From the NCBI GenBank assembly GCA_948470565.1, contig CAOKPF010000013.1, positions 1 to 34,844 on the forward strand: a stretch of 34,844 nucleotides of DNA, read 5' to 3'. Positions 8,772 to 20,455 of the stretch are shown here, piece by piece. The stretch comes from an uncultured Clostridium sp. Lineage in GTDB: Bacteria; Bacillota; Clostridia; TANB77; CAG-465. The notes under the pieces were generated by a model. It searched no databases. It was not told where the DNA came from and worked only from the letters and a program-made list of their open reading frames with translations. The number at the start of each line of letters is the position of its first letter. Position 1 is the stretch's first letter. The position numbers and the translations under genes are program-made.

Positions 8772-9212
8772 ATGGAATTTAATGATACTTTAGTAAATAT
8801 TTCAGAAAATGTTGATTTTGAAAAACAGATATGGGAGGAATTTAAACCATATTTAACAGAAATTGCAAAAAAAGACCATCCATATGGGTGTGTTGTAATA
8901 TTCCAAAACTTTAAAGATAGCTTTTATAAAGCAATAAACGATATAATAAAAAAAGATATAATTTTTTCATTACCATTTTTTATTGATGGTTTACCATCGT
9001 TTAGCTATTCTCATTCTTTTGGGCGTGTTTTAATTTGGAATAAAAAATCAAAAGATAAATACTCTCGTTTATATGTAGATATAAGTTCTTATATATTAAT
9101 AGTAACAAATACAGATGATAAAATTAACTTTGAAATAAGAGAGCTAAATAAAGATGAAAAAAGTGCGTCAGAGAGTTTATACCATCTTGAAGAACGTTAT
9201 TTTTTTACATAA
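8772..9212 (+). CDS. Unrecognised protein divergent from Wadjet
   Basis: 146 aa, not recognised. It is a soluble, mixed alpha/beta-looking protein with no signal peptide, membrane segment or cysteine cluster. The N-terminal third is acidic (KQIWEEFKPYLTEIAKK). The centre is aromatic and glycine-containing (FSLPFFIDGLPSFSYSHSFGRVLIW), and the C-terminal half reads like alternating beta strands (SSYILIVTNTDDKINFEIREL). The ATG follows an ideal AAGGAGG. It has its own promoter and a strong terminator, so it is a monocistronic unit. It is the only plus-strand gene in the left 21 kb and diverges from jetA. A regulatory or defence link to Wadjet is possible but is only a positional guess. Confidence 0.85.
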   Translation: MEFNDTLVNISENVDFEKQIWEEFKPYLTEIAKKDHPYGCVVIFQNFKDSFYKAINDIIKKDIIFSLPFFIDGLPSFSYSHSFGRVLIWNKKSKDKYSRLYVDISSYILIVTNTDDKINFEIRELNKDEKSASESLYHLEERYFFT

Positions 9213-9623: not shown

Positions 9624-9660
9624 AAAAAAGTAGACTTATCATTTGTTATAAATCTACTTT
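9624..9660 (-). terminator. Terminator after the gene at 9674
   Basis: Read on the minus strand, AAAGTAGA (9660-9653) pairs with TCTACTTT (9634-9627) and continues into a six-T run (9629-9624). The stem is short and AT-rich with an 18-nt loop, so its strength is moderate. Confidence 0.6.
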
Positions 9661-9673
9661 AATTTATAATTGA

Positions 9674-10426
9674 TTAAAATGGAAAATCATCATCGTCTAT
9701 ATCTTGCATACAGTCTTCCAATAAATTTATATCAAGCATTCTTTCTAGATTATCTAAAATATTATCTTCTTGAAGACTAATCATAAAATCAGCCATATCA
9801 CTTACACTATTTCCTCCTGCTTTCCATGCTATGGAATTATTAAGAACATCATACATCTTTTCTTTTATATTAGCGAATACTTCACCTGATATTTTTTTCT
9901 TTTTTGAATTAACTAATTCATCAAACAATAGTACTTCTAATTCCTTAGTATTATCCTCATAATTTAAATTTCTAAATACCACTTCCATTATTCTTTCTAA
10001 TGTTTCTTTTTCAAAATATTCTTGCAAAATTGAAATTAGACTACTAATGTTTTTATCATTTATATTCATACCATATTTAGAATATATTAATATCTCATCT
10101 TTTTTTAGTTTTTTTCTTTTTATTACCAATAATGAAGTAGCTGCCTCATCTAAGAAATTTTTCTTTAATTTTTTATATACAACACAGTCGAATTTTCCAC
10201 AATCTGTATTAATTTGTTTCATTTTAAAGTATTTTGATATAGTCTCATCTTTATTTATAATTGATACTAAATTTGTTCTTCTTAAGTTTCTATTATATTT
10301 TTTTACTATTTTATATAATTCTTCAAACGTAATAAGACCGTAGGCGTATAATACACCTCTTGTTATTAATACATTTATGTCTAAATTTTTAAGTTCTTCT
10401 TCTGTATATGCAATTTTTTTACTCAT
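9674..10426 (-). CDS. Unrecognised protein with an SSB-like acidic C-terminal tail
   Basis: 250 aa, not recognised. The first 60 residues (EELKNLDINVLITRGVLYAYGLITFEELYKIVKKY) could form a small helical or winged-helix domain. A basic linker (KKLKKNFLDEAATSLLVIKRKKLKKDE) follows, then a helical C-terminal half. The last residues are DIDDDDFPF, which closely match the tip of single-stranded DNA-binding proteins (DDDIPF or DDDLPF) that recruits DNA repair and replication enzymes. No OB fold is apparent, so this is not itself an SSB. The ATG follows AAAGGAG and lies 18 bp after the deacetylase gene, so the two are probably co-transcribed. The function and the meaning of the tail are unknown. Confidence 0.85.
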   Translation of the reverse strand: MSKKIAYTEEELKNLDINVLITRGVLYAYGLITFEELYKIVKKYNRNLRRTNLVSIINKDETISKYFKMKQINTDCGKFDCVVYKKLKKNFLDEAATSLLVIKRKKLKKDEILIYSKYGMNINDKNISSLISILQEYFEKETLERIMEVVFRNLNYEDNTKELEVLLFDELVNSKKKKISGEVFANIKEKMYDVLNNSIAWKAGGNSVSDMADFMISLQEDNILDNLERMLDINLLEDCMQDIDDDDFPF

Positions 10427-10444
10427 AAATTTCTCCTTTATATA

Positions 10445-11383
10445 TTACTCCCACTCAACTTCTACGTGTGCCTTACTTGCATAATTTACAAACGTATCTA
10501 GTGACATTGATCTTGTAGCATAAATTCTTGGTATTTTTAACGGATCAATATGTTTCGCCGTATAATATACTCCTCCATCCATATCTAGCCCATATATATA
10601 CCCTGCCTCTTTTGATAATTCTATCGTATTATTGTTACGTGAACCATAAGGATAGCATATCACTGTTGAATTTATTCCATAAGTTTCTTTTAAATACTCC
10701 TTGGAATTAAACAACTCGTTTTTTTGTTTTTCATATGATAATTGTGCTAAATATGGGTGTGTAACAGTATGTGATTGTATATCTACAAGTCCACTAGCTT
10801 GCATTTCTTTTAGTTGTGCCTCATCGCAATAACCTGGTGTTCCTACCATATCTTTTATTATATACATAGAATATTTTATATTATACTGTTTGGCTAGTGG
10901 AAACATATATAAATATACATCTAACCAACCATCATCAAATGTCAAAGCTACTGGCTTTTCATATTTATATATTTTTTCTAAATCTGTTATCCAGATTAAA
11001 TCATAGTTATTACTAACTAAATATTTTATTTGTTCCGTTAATGTACTTGGTCTAACCATATTTTCTGGCCATGGATAATCTCCAGTGTCATCTCTTACCC
11101 AATGGTACATGTATATTGGTACTGCTGCTGTATATGATATGGGTACTTTTTCTACTTCTGGTTCTTTTTGTATAATTGGTTCCTCTTGTGCATTCTCTTC
11201 TACTGGTAATGTGTTAGAAGCAGTTTCAGAAACATTTTCCGCTGGAAATATATCTTCAGTTTGACTGTTACTAATATTATCTTCACTTTCTTTGCCAATT
11301 TTATTTAGACTAAAATATAAAAGACTTAAAATTATTACTAAAAATACAGTAACTAAGGATAATAATACTTTTTTGTTCTTCAT
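10445..11383 (-). CDS. Membrane-anchored polysaccharide deacetylase (NodB family)
   Basis: 312 aa carbohydrate esterase 4-type enzyme that would remove acetyl or related groups from a surface or wall polysaccharide outside the cell. Residues 6-25 form one hydrophobic anchor after a lysine-rich start. A Ser/Glu/Pro-rich spacer runs to about residue 85. The catalytic NodB domain then shows TFDDGW (aspartates near 150-151), SHTVTHP (metal-binding histidines near 205 and 209) and the substrate-groove motif YPYGSRN (244-250). The frame extends to 11446, but AAGGAGGTGTAC directly precedes the ATG at 11383, which also gives the proper anchor start. The substrate cannot be told from sequence. It heads a two-gene operon with the SSB-tailed protein. 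Confidence 0.9.
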   Translation of the reverse strand: MKNKKVLLSLVTVFLVIILSLLYFSLNKIGKESEDNISNSQTEDIFPAENVSETASNTLPVEENAQEEPIIQKEPEVEKVPISYTAAVPIYMYHWVRDDTGDYPWPENMVRPSTLTEQIKYLVSNNYDLIWITDLEKIYKYEKPVALTFDDGWLDVYLYMFPLAKQYNIKYSMYIIKDMVGTPGYCDEAQLKEMQASGLVDIQSHTVTHPYLAQLSYEKQKNELFNSKEYLKETYGINSTVICYPYGSRNNNTIELSKEAGYIYGLDMDGGVYYTAKHIDPLKIPRIYATRSMSLDTFVNYASKAHVEVEWE

Positions 11384-11501
11384 GTACACCTCCTTACTAA
11401 AAAGAAAATTTTGTAGTTTTTTTAGAATTATACGTTTGATTATCATTTTGCAATATAATTTAGACTATCTTCATTTTTCTACTTATTTTTTACTTTTGAT
11501 A

Positions 11502-12024: not shown

Positions 12025-12517
12025 TTTTATCTACAACCATTGTTAAAGTTAAACTTACTACAAGCTAATGCATTAAGTGTAATCATACTAAGATTTAAAT
12101 ACAACTATTGTTAAAGTTAAACTGTTTTACAATATCATTCCAAAGGCTTATTCTACCATTTAAATACAACTATTGTTAAAGTTAAACAAAGGAGAGTTTA
12201 AAGATACACGTTTTGAACTACAATTTAAATACAACTATTGTTAAAGTTAAACAACAAGCTTGTCGAGTTTTTTAATTTTCTTGCGAAAATTTAAATACAA
12301 CTATTGTTAAAGTTAAACAAAATATAGAGGGGTGGAGTGAAAGTTACGCTACACCATTTAAATACAACTATTGTTAAAGTTAAACAAGAAATAGCATTTA
12401 AGTGGAAAATAAGAAAAGAGGATTTAAATACAACTATTGTTAAAATTAAACAAGATTTTATATGTTCGCAAAAGTAAATATAGATTAATTTAAATACAAC
12501 TATTGTTAAAGTTAAAC
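12025..12517 (-). CRISPR. Type I-B CRISPR array, 8 repeats and 7 spacers
   Basis: The 30-bp repeats start at 12025, 12093, 12158, 12223, 12289, 12356, 12422 and 12488. On the plus strand each reads ATTTAAATACAACT followed by ATTGTTAAAGTTAAAC. Spacers are 38, 35, 35, 36, 37, 36 and 36 bp. Read with the cas genes (minus strand) the repeat begins GTTTAACTTT and ends TATTTAAAT, as in clostridial I-B systems, whose Cas6-made crRNAs keep the last 8 nt as 5' handle. The copy at 12025-12054 differs at four positions and marks the old, leader-distal end. The copy at 12422 has one G-to-A change near its end. The leader is therefore on the high-coordinate side, next to cas2. Confidence 0.97.
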
Positions 12518-12654
12518 CTAACGAAAAATCAACATTTTCTAAAAATATAATCTTTAAAATTCATTGATATTTAAACCTTTTTTTATTTTTTTCCAGCAAT
12601 TTATCATTTTCCAACTTTCGCTATATAACTGCATTATATCATTTTAGCTGGAAA
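12518..12654 (-). promoter_or_regulatory. CRISPR leader
   Basis: AT-rich segment between the cas2 stop and the leader-proximal repeat at 12488-12517. It contains a minus-strand TATAAT (12638-12633) that could drive the array, without an obvious -35. An 8-bp inverted repeat, TTTCCAGC (12590-12597) against GCTGGAAA (12647-12654), spans half of it and touches the cas2 stop codon. Leader identity follows from the repeat degeneration at the other end and the cas gene direction. Confidence 0.7.
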
Positions 12655-16920: not shown

Positions 16921-17700
16921 CTAAAAGAAATATATATTTTTATCATTTACTAAATAAATACTTTCTGCTTTTTTTATTTCTATTTTTTTATTTGTAAATG
17001 TAAATTTTTTAAAATCAGTATAACCTATATCTGAATTTAATTTTGTTGGCATAACTTCTATATATTCAAATTGCATTTCATTATCTGAATATAACATTGG
17101 TTCAAAAAAATCATCTATAACTTCATAAATATTATCTGTAAATATCGATTCTACAGTACCTAAAATATTATTGCATTCTTGCGCATTTAATACCTCTACA
17201 TTACTTATATCTGCAAAATGCTCATTTTTTCCTATATAAGGTATGTATTCGCATTTTTTATTTAGTAAATATTCTTTTATTTTTAAATACTTTCCTGACT
17301 GATTTGATAATATATATATATCCCAACTTGGATTTTCTAAATATTGTTCTGTTATAATCAAGTTATTCCCTTCTTCTTTAGAAGCATATCCTACACTATT
17401 ATTAAATTGTTGAATTTTCTTTTCAAAAGTACCCATTTTAGAATTTGGAACTACTGCTATTTTTAAGTCCTTTAAATTATTGTAAAATTCTGGAAGTTGC
17501 TTTATAATATTTTTATTTTTAATATCTAACTCGGTCTTTAATTGATTATAATTATATCCATTTTCTCCAATAATAGCGCCTAATATTCCTAATATCATTA
17601 TTTTGTGAACATTATTATATGTAAAATATACACTATTGCTTTCAGGCTTTCTAATAACAGCATTTGGTCCCCTAAGTTCAAATTTTATCACTTCTTCCAT
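16921..17700 (-). CDS. cas5: Cas5, Cascade foot subunit
   Basis: 259 aa. The N-terminal RAMP signature FELRGPNAVIRKPESNS, followed by KIMILGILGAIIGENG, is typical of Cas5 of the I-B/Hmari class. Cas5 caps the 5' handle of the crRNA and contacts Cas8b. In this class Cas5 is normally not the crRNA nuclease, because Cas6 is present. The ATG has an AGGAGG and is 14 bp after cas7. Confidence 0.93.
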   Translation of the reverse strand: MEEVIKFELRGPNAVIRKPESNSVYFTYNNVHKIMILGILGAIIGENGYNYNQLKTELDIKNKNIIKQLPEFYNNLKDLKIAVVPNSKMGTFEKKIQQFNNSVGYASKEEGNNLIITEQYLENPSWDIYILSNQSGKYLKIKEYLLNKKCEYIPYIGKNEHFADISNVEVLNAQECNNILGTVESIFTDNIYEVIDDFFEPMLYSDNEMQFEYIEVMPTKLNSDIGYTDFKKFTFTNKKIEIKKAESIYLVNDKNIYFF

Positions 17701-18646: not shown

Positions 18647-20455
18647 CTAATTTATACTTTCTATTTTTAAATTATTTTCTTCTTTAGAAGCTTCATCAGC
18701 CTTTAAATAAAATAAATTTTCTTCTAAAAATCCAGCTAATATATATTTTCTATTTTTTACAATGTCTTTTTCTATATCATCTACTAATATTTGTTTTAAT
18801 ATATTATCAAATCTGTTGTTATTTAATGCTAAATCATAGCTATATTTATCTCTCATATGTAAAATAATAGATATAAGTTTATCTTGTTTACTAACTTTCA
18901 TAATTGGATCGATTAATGACTGTGTTTTAGTATTAGCTTTACTCTTGCTTAACAGATATTTTGCAACTTGTCCAACCATAAAAAAGTACATTTCATCTGT
19001 TTGTATTTTGCCATTATTTAAAACTATTTCTTTTGATTTTAAATATATATCATTTTTTATCATTTTAAAATTTCCCCCTAAATATTCGTCAAAAGCAATC
19101 CATAAATTTATTACTTTTGTTGAATTAAATATTTTTCCCTCTTTATATTCATCTAATAATGTTCTATAACAAATTTCAAAAGCTATTCTATCTAATTTCT
19201 GCTTTAATGGTCTAATATTTGATTTGTGAAAAAATTCAAAAAATATATTTGCATTTTCTTTCAATATTTCTTTTTTCCAAGTAGGTACCATTGTTCTTTT
19301 CGATACTATATCTTTAAAATTATAATATGATTCTCTTAAACTGTTTGAAAACCATATTTTACTTACTCTTCTTTCTAATTCATATATATTTTGGGTTATA
19401 AACTCACATTCATCTAAATTAAAATTATTAGTAAAGTAATTAGTACACTTAAAAGTTTTAATTGTTTCACTATAAAAAGGAATATAATCAAAATCCTCTA
19501 TTTTAGCTGTTCCATTATCATTTTTTACCGTTAATAAATAAACAGGCTTCCCTTTTATTTCCAAATCATCTAAACCTTTAAAATCAAAATCTAATGGTAT
19601 TTTTACAAAATCTTTTGTTGTAGTATTTTTCAATAACCATATGTACATGTTTCTTATAACCTTTATATCTTCTAAACTTACCATAGAGGCTACTTTAAAT
19701 GAAGTAGATTTAAGTTCTGTAAAAGGCTTTTTACCTGTTGTATATCCAAAATTATAATTATTTATACCATATACCTCTTCATTTTCAATCTTGTTTTCGT
19801 CATTTTTATTAAATAATTTTAAATATGTATATTTTAATGAGGCTTTTTCATAATCTAACACATCTGCTTCTAAAAATACTTTTATCCATGTATCTTTTGT
19901 AAGCTCTTCGTTTTTTAATAATTCAACTGTTTCTAAAAATTTTTGTTTTATTATTTCTTTATTTTGAAGTATTTCTTCATCTGTAGATATATTGTCCTTT
20001 ATTTTATCTAATATCATTTCTGTATTTTTATCGTTTTTTCCAAGGTTTATCATAGAATCAAAATATTTATCTATTCCTTTTAAAAATATATCAACAGGTA
20101 TTGTATCTTTAGGATCTTTTATAAGTCCTTCAACAAATCTATTTTTAAAAAATAATGTATAATGATTATTACTACATATCTTTTTTAACATTGAGTACTC
20201 GGTTGAGTTCCTTTTTTCTTTATAAGATGTATCTAGTGCCTTATTTGAATCTATATAATTACTATAAAAATCTCTTATTTTTATATATTCATATAATGTA
20301 CTAGTACTATTTGTTTCCTTATCTACCTTTAAAAATTCATGTGTACCATCTTTTTTAAATAATATATATATTCCATTTTGTAACCTATATGAACTTAAAA
20401 CTACTTTTTCATCTTCAAAATACTTTCTATAACTGTTCACTAAATCAAAAATCAT
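18647..20455 (-). CDS. cas8b: Cas8b, large Cascade subunit (Csh1-like)
   Basis: 602 aa, the size and position of the type I-B large subunit that recognises the PAM and recruits Cas3. Conservation is low in this family, so the call rests on position between cas6 and cas7, length, and Csh1-like features: the N-terminal YILFKKDG strand and the helical C-terminal third (FFMVGQVAKYLLSKSKAN) that replaces a separate small subunit. No zinc-binding cysteine cluster is evident. The ATG follows AGGAGGTG, 11 bp after cas6. Confidence 0.9.
   Translation of the reverse strand: MIFDLVNSYRKYFEDEKVVLSSYRLQNGIYILFKKDGTHEFLKVDKETNSTSTLYEYIKIRDFYSNYIDSNKALDTSYKEKRNSTEYSMLKKICSNNHYTLFFKNRFVEGLIKDPKDTIPVDIFLKGIDKYFDSMINLGKNDKNTEMILDKIKDNISTDEEILQNKEIIKQKFLETVELLKNEELTKDTWIKVFLEADVLDYEKASLKYTYLKLFNKNDENKIENEEVYGINNYNFGYTTGKKPFTELKSTSFKVASMVSLEDIKVIRNMYIWLLKNTTTKDFVKIPLDFDFKGLDDLEIKGKPVYLLTVKNDNGTAKIEDFDYIPFYSETIKTFKCTNYFTNNFNLDECEFITQNIYELERRVSKIWFSNSLRESYYNFKDIVSKRTMVPTWKKEILKENANIFFEFFHKSNIRPLKQKLDRIAFEICYRTLLDEYKEGKIFNSTKVINLWIAFDEYLGGNFKMIKNDIYLKSKEIVLNNGKIQTDEMYFFMVGQVAKYLLSKSKANTKTQSLIDPIMKVSKQDKLISIILHMRDKYSYDLALNNNRFDNILKQILVDDIEKDIVKNRKYILAGFLEENLFYLKADEASKEENNLKIESIN

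Follow-up and report, generated by a model that had tools for sequence, protein, structure and literature searches.

The locus and the surrounding defence island

The window, that is, the whole analysed stretch of 34,844 nucleotides from an uncultured Clostridium sp. (contig CAOKPF010000013.1, assembly GCA_948470565.1), is a defence island. Besides a type I restriction enzyme, it contains a Wadjet type II system, in which PADLOC recognised JetA2, JetB2 and JetD2 and Pfam an SbcC-type ATPase, and a type I CRISPR-Cas set that includes an array with eight copies (12025-12526). Two genes of the cas operon, at 16921-17700 (-) and 18647-20455 (-), occupy the places expected for Cas5 and Cas8 and have no convincing Pfam match.

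On the minus strand, an open reading frame with an ATG start (9674..10426, -) encodes a protein of 250 amino acids with an SSB-like C-terminal tip. Its translation ends in CMQDIDDDDFPF, bearing out the terminal DIDDDDFPF given in an earlier, sequence-only reading of this DNA; the codons for these nine residues, located by the ORF and by a genome-wide pattern, lie at 9677..9703 (-). The gene upstream of it, apparently part of the same transcription unit, encodes a polysaccharide deacetylase (10445..11446, -; Pfam Polysacc_deac_1, 1.3e-29), and the 18-nt gap behind this deacetylase gene holds the ribosome-binding site AAGGAG (10433..10438, -). Directly downstream of the gene for the 250-aa protein, a terminator-like hairpin with a U-run (9627..9660, -; fold -12.8 kcal/mol, z -3.6) was found, which a GC-based scan passed over. 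A divergent ORF of 146 aa, with no Pfam or PADLOC match, is located between the Wadjet genes and this gene (8772-9212, +).

The co-transcription with the deacetylase proposed in the sequence-only reading holds locally, with the 18-nt gap and the U-tailed hairpin in its favour, but the pairing is not conserved, nor can it be, since a significant homologue of the 250-aa protein is missing from 26 of the other 27 genomes in the genus. In the relatives with a parsable locus, the deacetylase gene sits among envelope-sugar genes or beside a glycosyltransferase, or is followed by no close same-strand gene of at least 70 aa. Because none of these seven loci has a gene of the target family behind the deacetylase, and nearly all genomes of the genus lack the 250-aa protein, the deacetylase was rejected as a functional partner. 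The pairing is particular to this genome, and the link between the two genes looks incidental.

Relatives and predicted fold of the protein

The 250-aa protein has no significant match in Pfam, NCBIfam, PHROGs, PADLOC or the PDB sequences, and none of the PADLOC models of known anti-phage defence families recognises it. UPF0180 and SbnB were discarded as identities, their matches being below the cut-off. The SSB domain PF00436 has no Pfam match in the protein, and the matches of the genome to this domain lie elsewhere. The AlphaFold2 model, built on a two-sequence alignment, is poor (mean pLDDT 48.7); it predicts a winged-helix N-terminus followed by helices, with residues 11-90 modelled at a pLDDT of about 55-84. 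Residues 9-84 (10175..10402, -) follow the order of elements of a winged helix, and the Foldseek matches of the model are weak, mostly to PadR-type winged helices, none of the 50 listed being below E 0.001. No OB fold was recognised among these 50 matches of the low-confidence model. A winged helix plus a helical domain is the likely fold of the body, as far as the model goes, and the sequence comparisons support a body that is not an SSB. The description of a non-SSB protein carrying an SSB-type tip is supported by the sequence databases, which returned no significant SSB or OB-fold match.

Only one recognisable homologue was found, a protein of 369 aa in genome G017 (L031) with 27% identity over 200 residues, which has an extra N-terminal domain and ends in NNGEKNE, without an SSB-like tip; the adjoining gene is, by its sequence, presumably hflX (GTPase). 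Genome contigs, viral contigs, plasmids and phages contained no close homologue beyond that one, and the weak matches L003-L007 were judged to be due to chance. In profile comparisons, the pair formed by the 250-aa protein and its G017 homologue is remotely linked to proteins of about 330 aa (L014-L018) that stop right behind NNSPQYxLGGYSP, and also to Clostridia proteins with NNTRxWxLKGHTP, which in most cases run on into a SEC-C zinc motif; L024 lacks both, and in L027 the frame closes at the start of the SEC-C motif. The comparison with the SEC-C-type relatives reached an hhalign probability of 95 over 168 columns, its E-values being those of a single comparison of shallow profiles. Viral matches of L023 were set aside as relatives, being mostly SEC-C motifs and none with the family motif.

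The counterpart of both relatives' motifs in the 250-aa protein is, by alignments and profile comparisons, NNSIAWKAGGNS (residues 196-207; 9806..9841, -). The remote similarity to the SEC-C proteins (L023, L025-L030) and the short-ended relatives (L014-L018), at hhalign 91-95%, covers the predicted winged helix, with x-LYxYG-[ILV], and the helical region, where NN[ST]..[WY].x.GG/GH-[ST]-P is located, whereas these proteins have a SEC-C zinc motif, or nothing, where the 250-aa protein has its acidic-PF tail. The SEC-C motif is absent from the latter in the alignment, and the place of this module is taken by an extension of about 37 residues that ends in the tip (residues about 214-250; 9677..9787, -), delimited by alignments and modelled with pLDDT of 30-35. 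Taking into account that the G017 homologue has no tail and that the other relatives end earlier or carry SEC-C, the acidic-PF tail is, as judged from these alignments, an accessory to the family body. According to the sequence-only reading, homologues should keep the tail, which the sole recognisable one does not; this was counted as only a partial refutation, as the family is variable in its C-terminal module.

The tip in the host genome, in the clade and on other proteins

The SSB of the host genome ends in ...ITIDDTEELPF, while a second host protein with two SSB-type domains (L009:156-827, 223 aa) is without an acidic PF tip. The pattern GAYGAYNWNCCNTTYTRR has one match genome-wide, the gene for the 250-aa protein, and GANGANNNNCCNTTYTRR ([DE][DE]xPF-stop) has two in the 2.1-Mb genome, SSB and this gene only; the reversed-pattern control for GANGANNNNCCNTTYTRR gave 2 matches, in any frame. 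By chance, about 0.007-0.06 genes per genome are expected to end in acidic-x-PF, i.e., about 0.007 per 2000 genes under independence and 0.01-0.06 with acidic clustering allowed, in a rough estimate from the C-terminal composition of clade ORFs, a small and biased sample from chosen loci.

In the order, a scan of 385 genomes located 97 DDDxPF-stop sites, 82 of which are SSBs, and the reversed control pattern matched 3 times, in any frame. At six more sites, the product resembles a phage ssDNA-binding protein: Pfam or PHROGs confirmed one as gp32-like and two as DUF669, and three are of DUF669 type by sequence resemblance. The remainder comprises short or truncated ORFs, two short proteins without confident assignment, the 250-aa protein of the window and one kinase. 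Among 331 genomes of the class, a sample that overlaps that of the order in a few genomes, the window's own included, SSBs account for 93 of the 108 sites. In this clade, DDDxPF-stop is close to a signature of ssDNA-binding proteins, so that its presence on the 250-aa protein is meaningful, and it is very unlikely that this protein has its SSB-like tip by chance.

Similar ends were found on several other non-SSB proteins. Three PD-T4-6-like Ser/Thr kinases, each from a different family of the class, end in EDDDLPF (L235:4617-5753), IDDDLPF (L344:5206-6345) and EPDYPF (L351:1498-2658); the first was assigned by a PADLOC match and the other two by homology to it, L351 coming from a profile search of the 331 genomes with L235 and L344 and not being picked for its tip. 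The D, P and F do not vary among the three homologues found, in contrast to the region before them. These kinases resemble the 250-aa protein in being non-SSB, defence-type proteins with an SSB-like tip, but they have an unrelated body and a tip that is conserved among the three. The L235 kinase gene adjoins a PD-Lambda-3_A-like gene and lies near a type I restriction gene, and that of L351 has a SEFIR/TIR gene beside it.

A Shedu-type nuclease (L346:5854-6459; SduA_C 9.7e-25), with an Eco57I-type DNA methylase in its neighbourhood, ends in EQEYDDDLPF, and an IrrE/ImmA-type peptidase with zinc-ribbon-like stretches (L345:5852-6991), encoded beside what we take to be a serine recombinase gene, ends in DDDDDDDLPF. 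DUF927-type proteins (L299 by Pfam, L324 and L339 by resemblance) end in DDDLPF, and a DUF6291/HTH protein of 196 aa (L331) in DDDDIPF. The tips on other non-SSB proteins are few and were noticed post hoc; they are consistent with accessory proteins that borrow the tip of SSB.

Proposed function of the tip

SSB is a hub at replication forks. At its binding sites for the C-terminal tip (SSB-Ct), a hydrophobic pocket buries the C-terminal Phe and a basic lip binds the carboxylate (PMC10164576), and in B. subtilis at least 12 partners are known, including PriA, RecG, RecQ, RecJ and RecO (PMC3000357). The 250-aa protein shares with SSB-Ct an acidic run and x-P-F at the extreme C-terminus, behind a low-confidence predicted segment, but carries them on an unrelated body without an SSB or OB-fold domain. 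A precedent for a tip on another protein is the PriB-SSBc chimera, in which the SSB C-terminal domain fused to PriB suffices to stimulate PriA, although this is a laboratory construct with the whole C-terminal domain and an OB-fold carrier (PMC8509808). Since proteins with this motif are nearly always ssDNA-binding ones in the clade, and given this precedent, it is plausible, by analogy with SSB-Ct, that the tail docks on host enzymes of repair or replication, in their pockets for the SSB tip; we take this as the likeliest reading, with the chances for and against it about equal. No report of SSB-tip mimicry by non-SSB proteins was found in open-licence PMC papers.

The best joint explanation, which in our opinion stands at the balance point between holding and failing, would be that of an accessory protein of the defence island, whose SEC-C-type-related body probably consists of a winged helix and a helical domain, and in which an extension of about 37 residues, with DIDDDDFPF as a functional SSB-type docking tip at its end, has replaced the usual C-terminal module. 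The terminal Phe, the alpha-carboxylate and the acidic run would fill the SSB-Ct pocket of RecG, RecQ, RecJ, PriA, RecO and others, and docking would bring the protein to forks, recruit the enzymes to whatever its body binds, or compete with SSB. A candidate role in defence is drawn from the gene neighbourhood and from the similar tips of other defence-type proteins; the family has, to our knowledge, no known function in defence.

Other explanations have to be weighed against docking. The acidic PF end could be a neutral or accidental tail of a fast-evolving orphan, binding nothing in particular, as might be expected of a protein present in one genome only, whose single homologue has no tail and whose tip was singled out from an effectively very large gene sample; purely acidic low-complexity proteins (L314, L315) likewise end in DDDFPF. 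However, only about 0.007-0.06 such tips are expected per genome, the reversed-pattern control gave 3 matches in any frame in 385 genomes, and D-I-D-D-D-D-F-P-F is like SSB-Ct across nine residues, so we regard an accidental tail as unlikely. Alternatively, the acidic tail could mimic DNA and regulate in cis, folding onto the winged helix of its own protein and keeping it off DNA until displaced, which we find distinctly improbable: DNA binding by the body is itself only putative, and a DNA mimic would not need the terminal P-F, a specific feature of SSB-Ct, although the predicted winged-helix region occurs together with a low-confidence acidic tail and acidic C-termini are known to autoregulate other nucleic-acid-binding proteins, e.g., Hfq (PMC5606850).

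A highly diverged phage-derived ssDNA-binding protein with an ordinary SSB tip is very improbable. Several phage ssDNA-binding families of the order (DUF669, gp32-like) do bear the same tip, but the body of the 250-aa protein aligns with SEC-C-type proteins, its model has no OB barrel, and the searches of phages and viral contigs gave no relative.

Beyond this protein, accessory immune proteins of bacteria, with unrelated bodies, may repeatedly have come to use tagging with an SSB tip, a device that has gone unnoticed so far; we offer this generalisation tentatively and regard it as somewhat doubtful. A SEC-C-like protein, a PD-T4-6-like kinase, a Shedu-type nuclease and an IrrE-type peptidase would each have gained an SSB-Ct-like tip, plugging them into the SSB network of the host, where they would be positioned at repair enzymes, or released from them, during infection. 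Short peptides and established binding assays offer a direct test of the docking idea. Sensing linked to SSB is an established theme in phage defence, phage SSBs being thought to be sensed by Hachiman, retron Eco8, Nhi and AbpAB (PMC12904381, PMC10732053). Non-SSB proteins with an SSB docking tip would show immune genes tapping the SSB hub from the other side.
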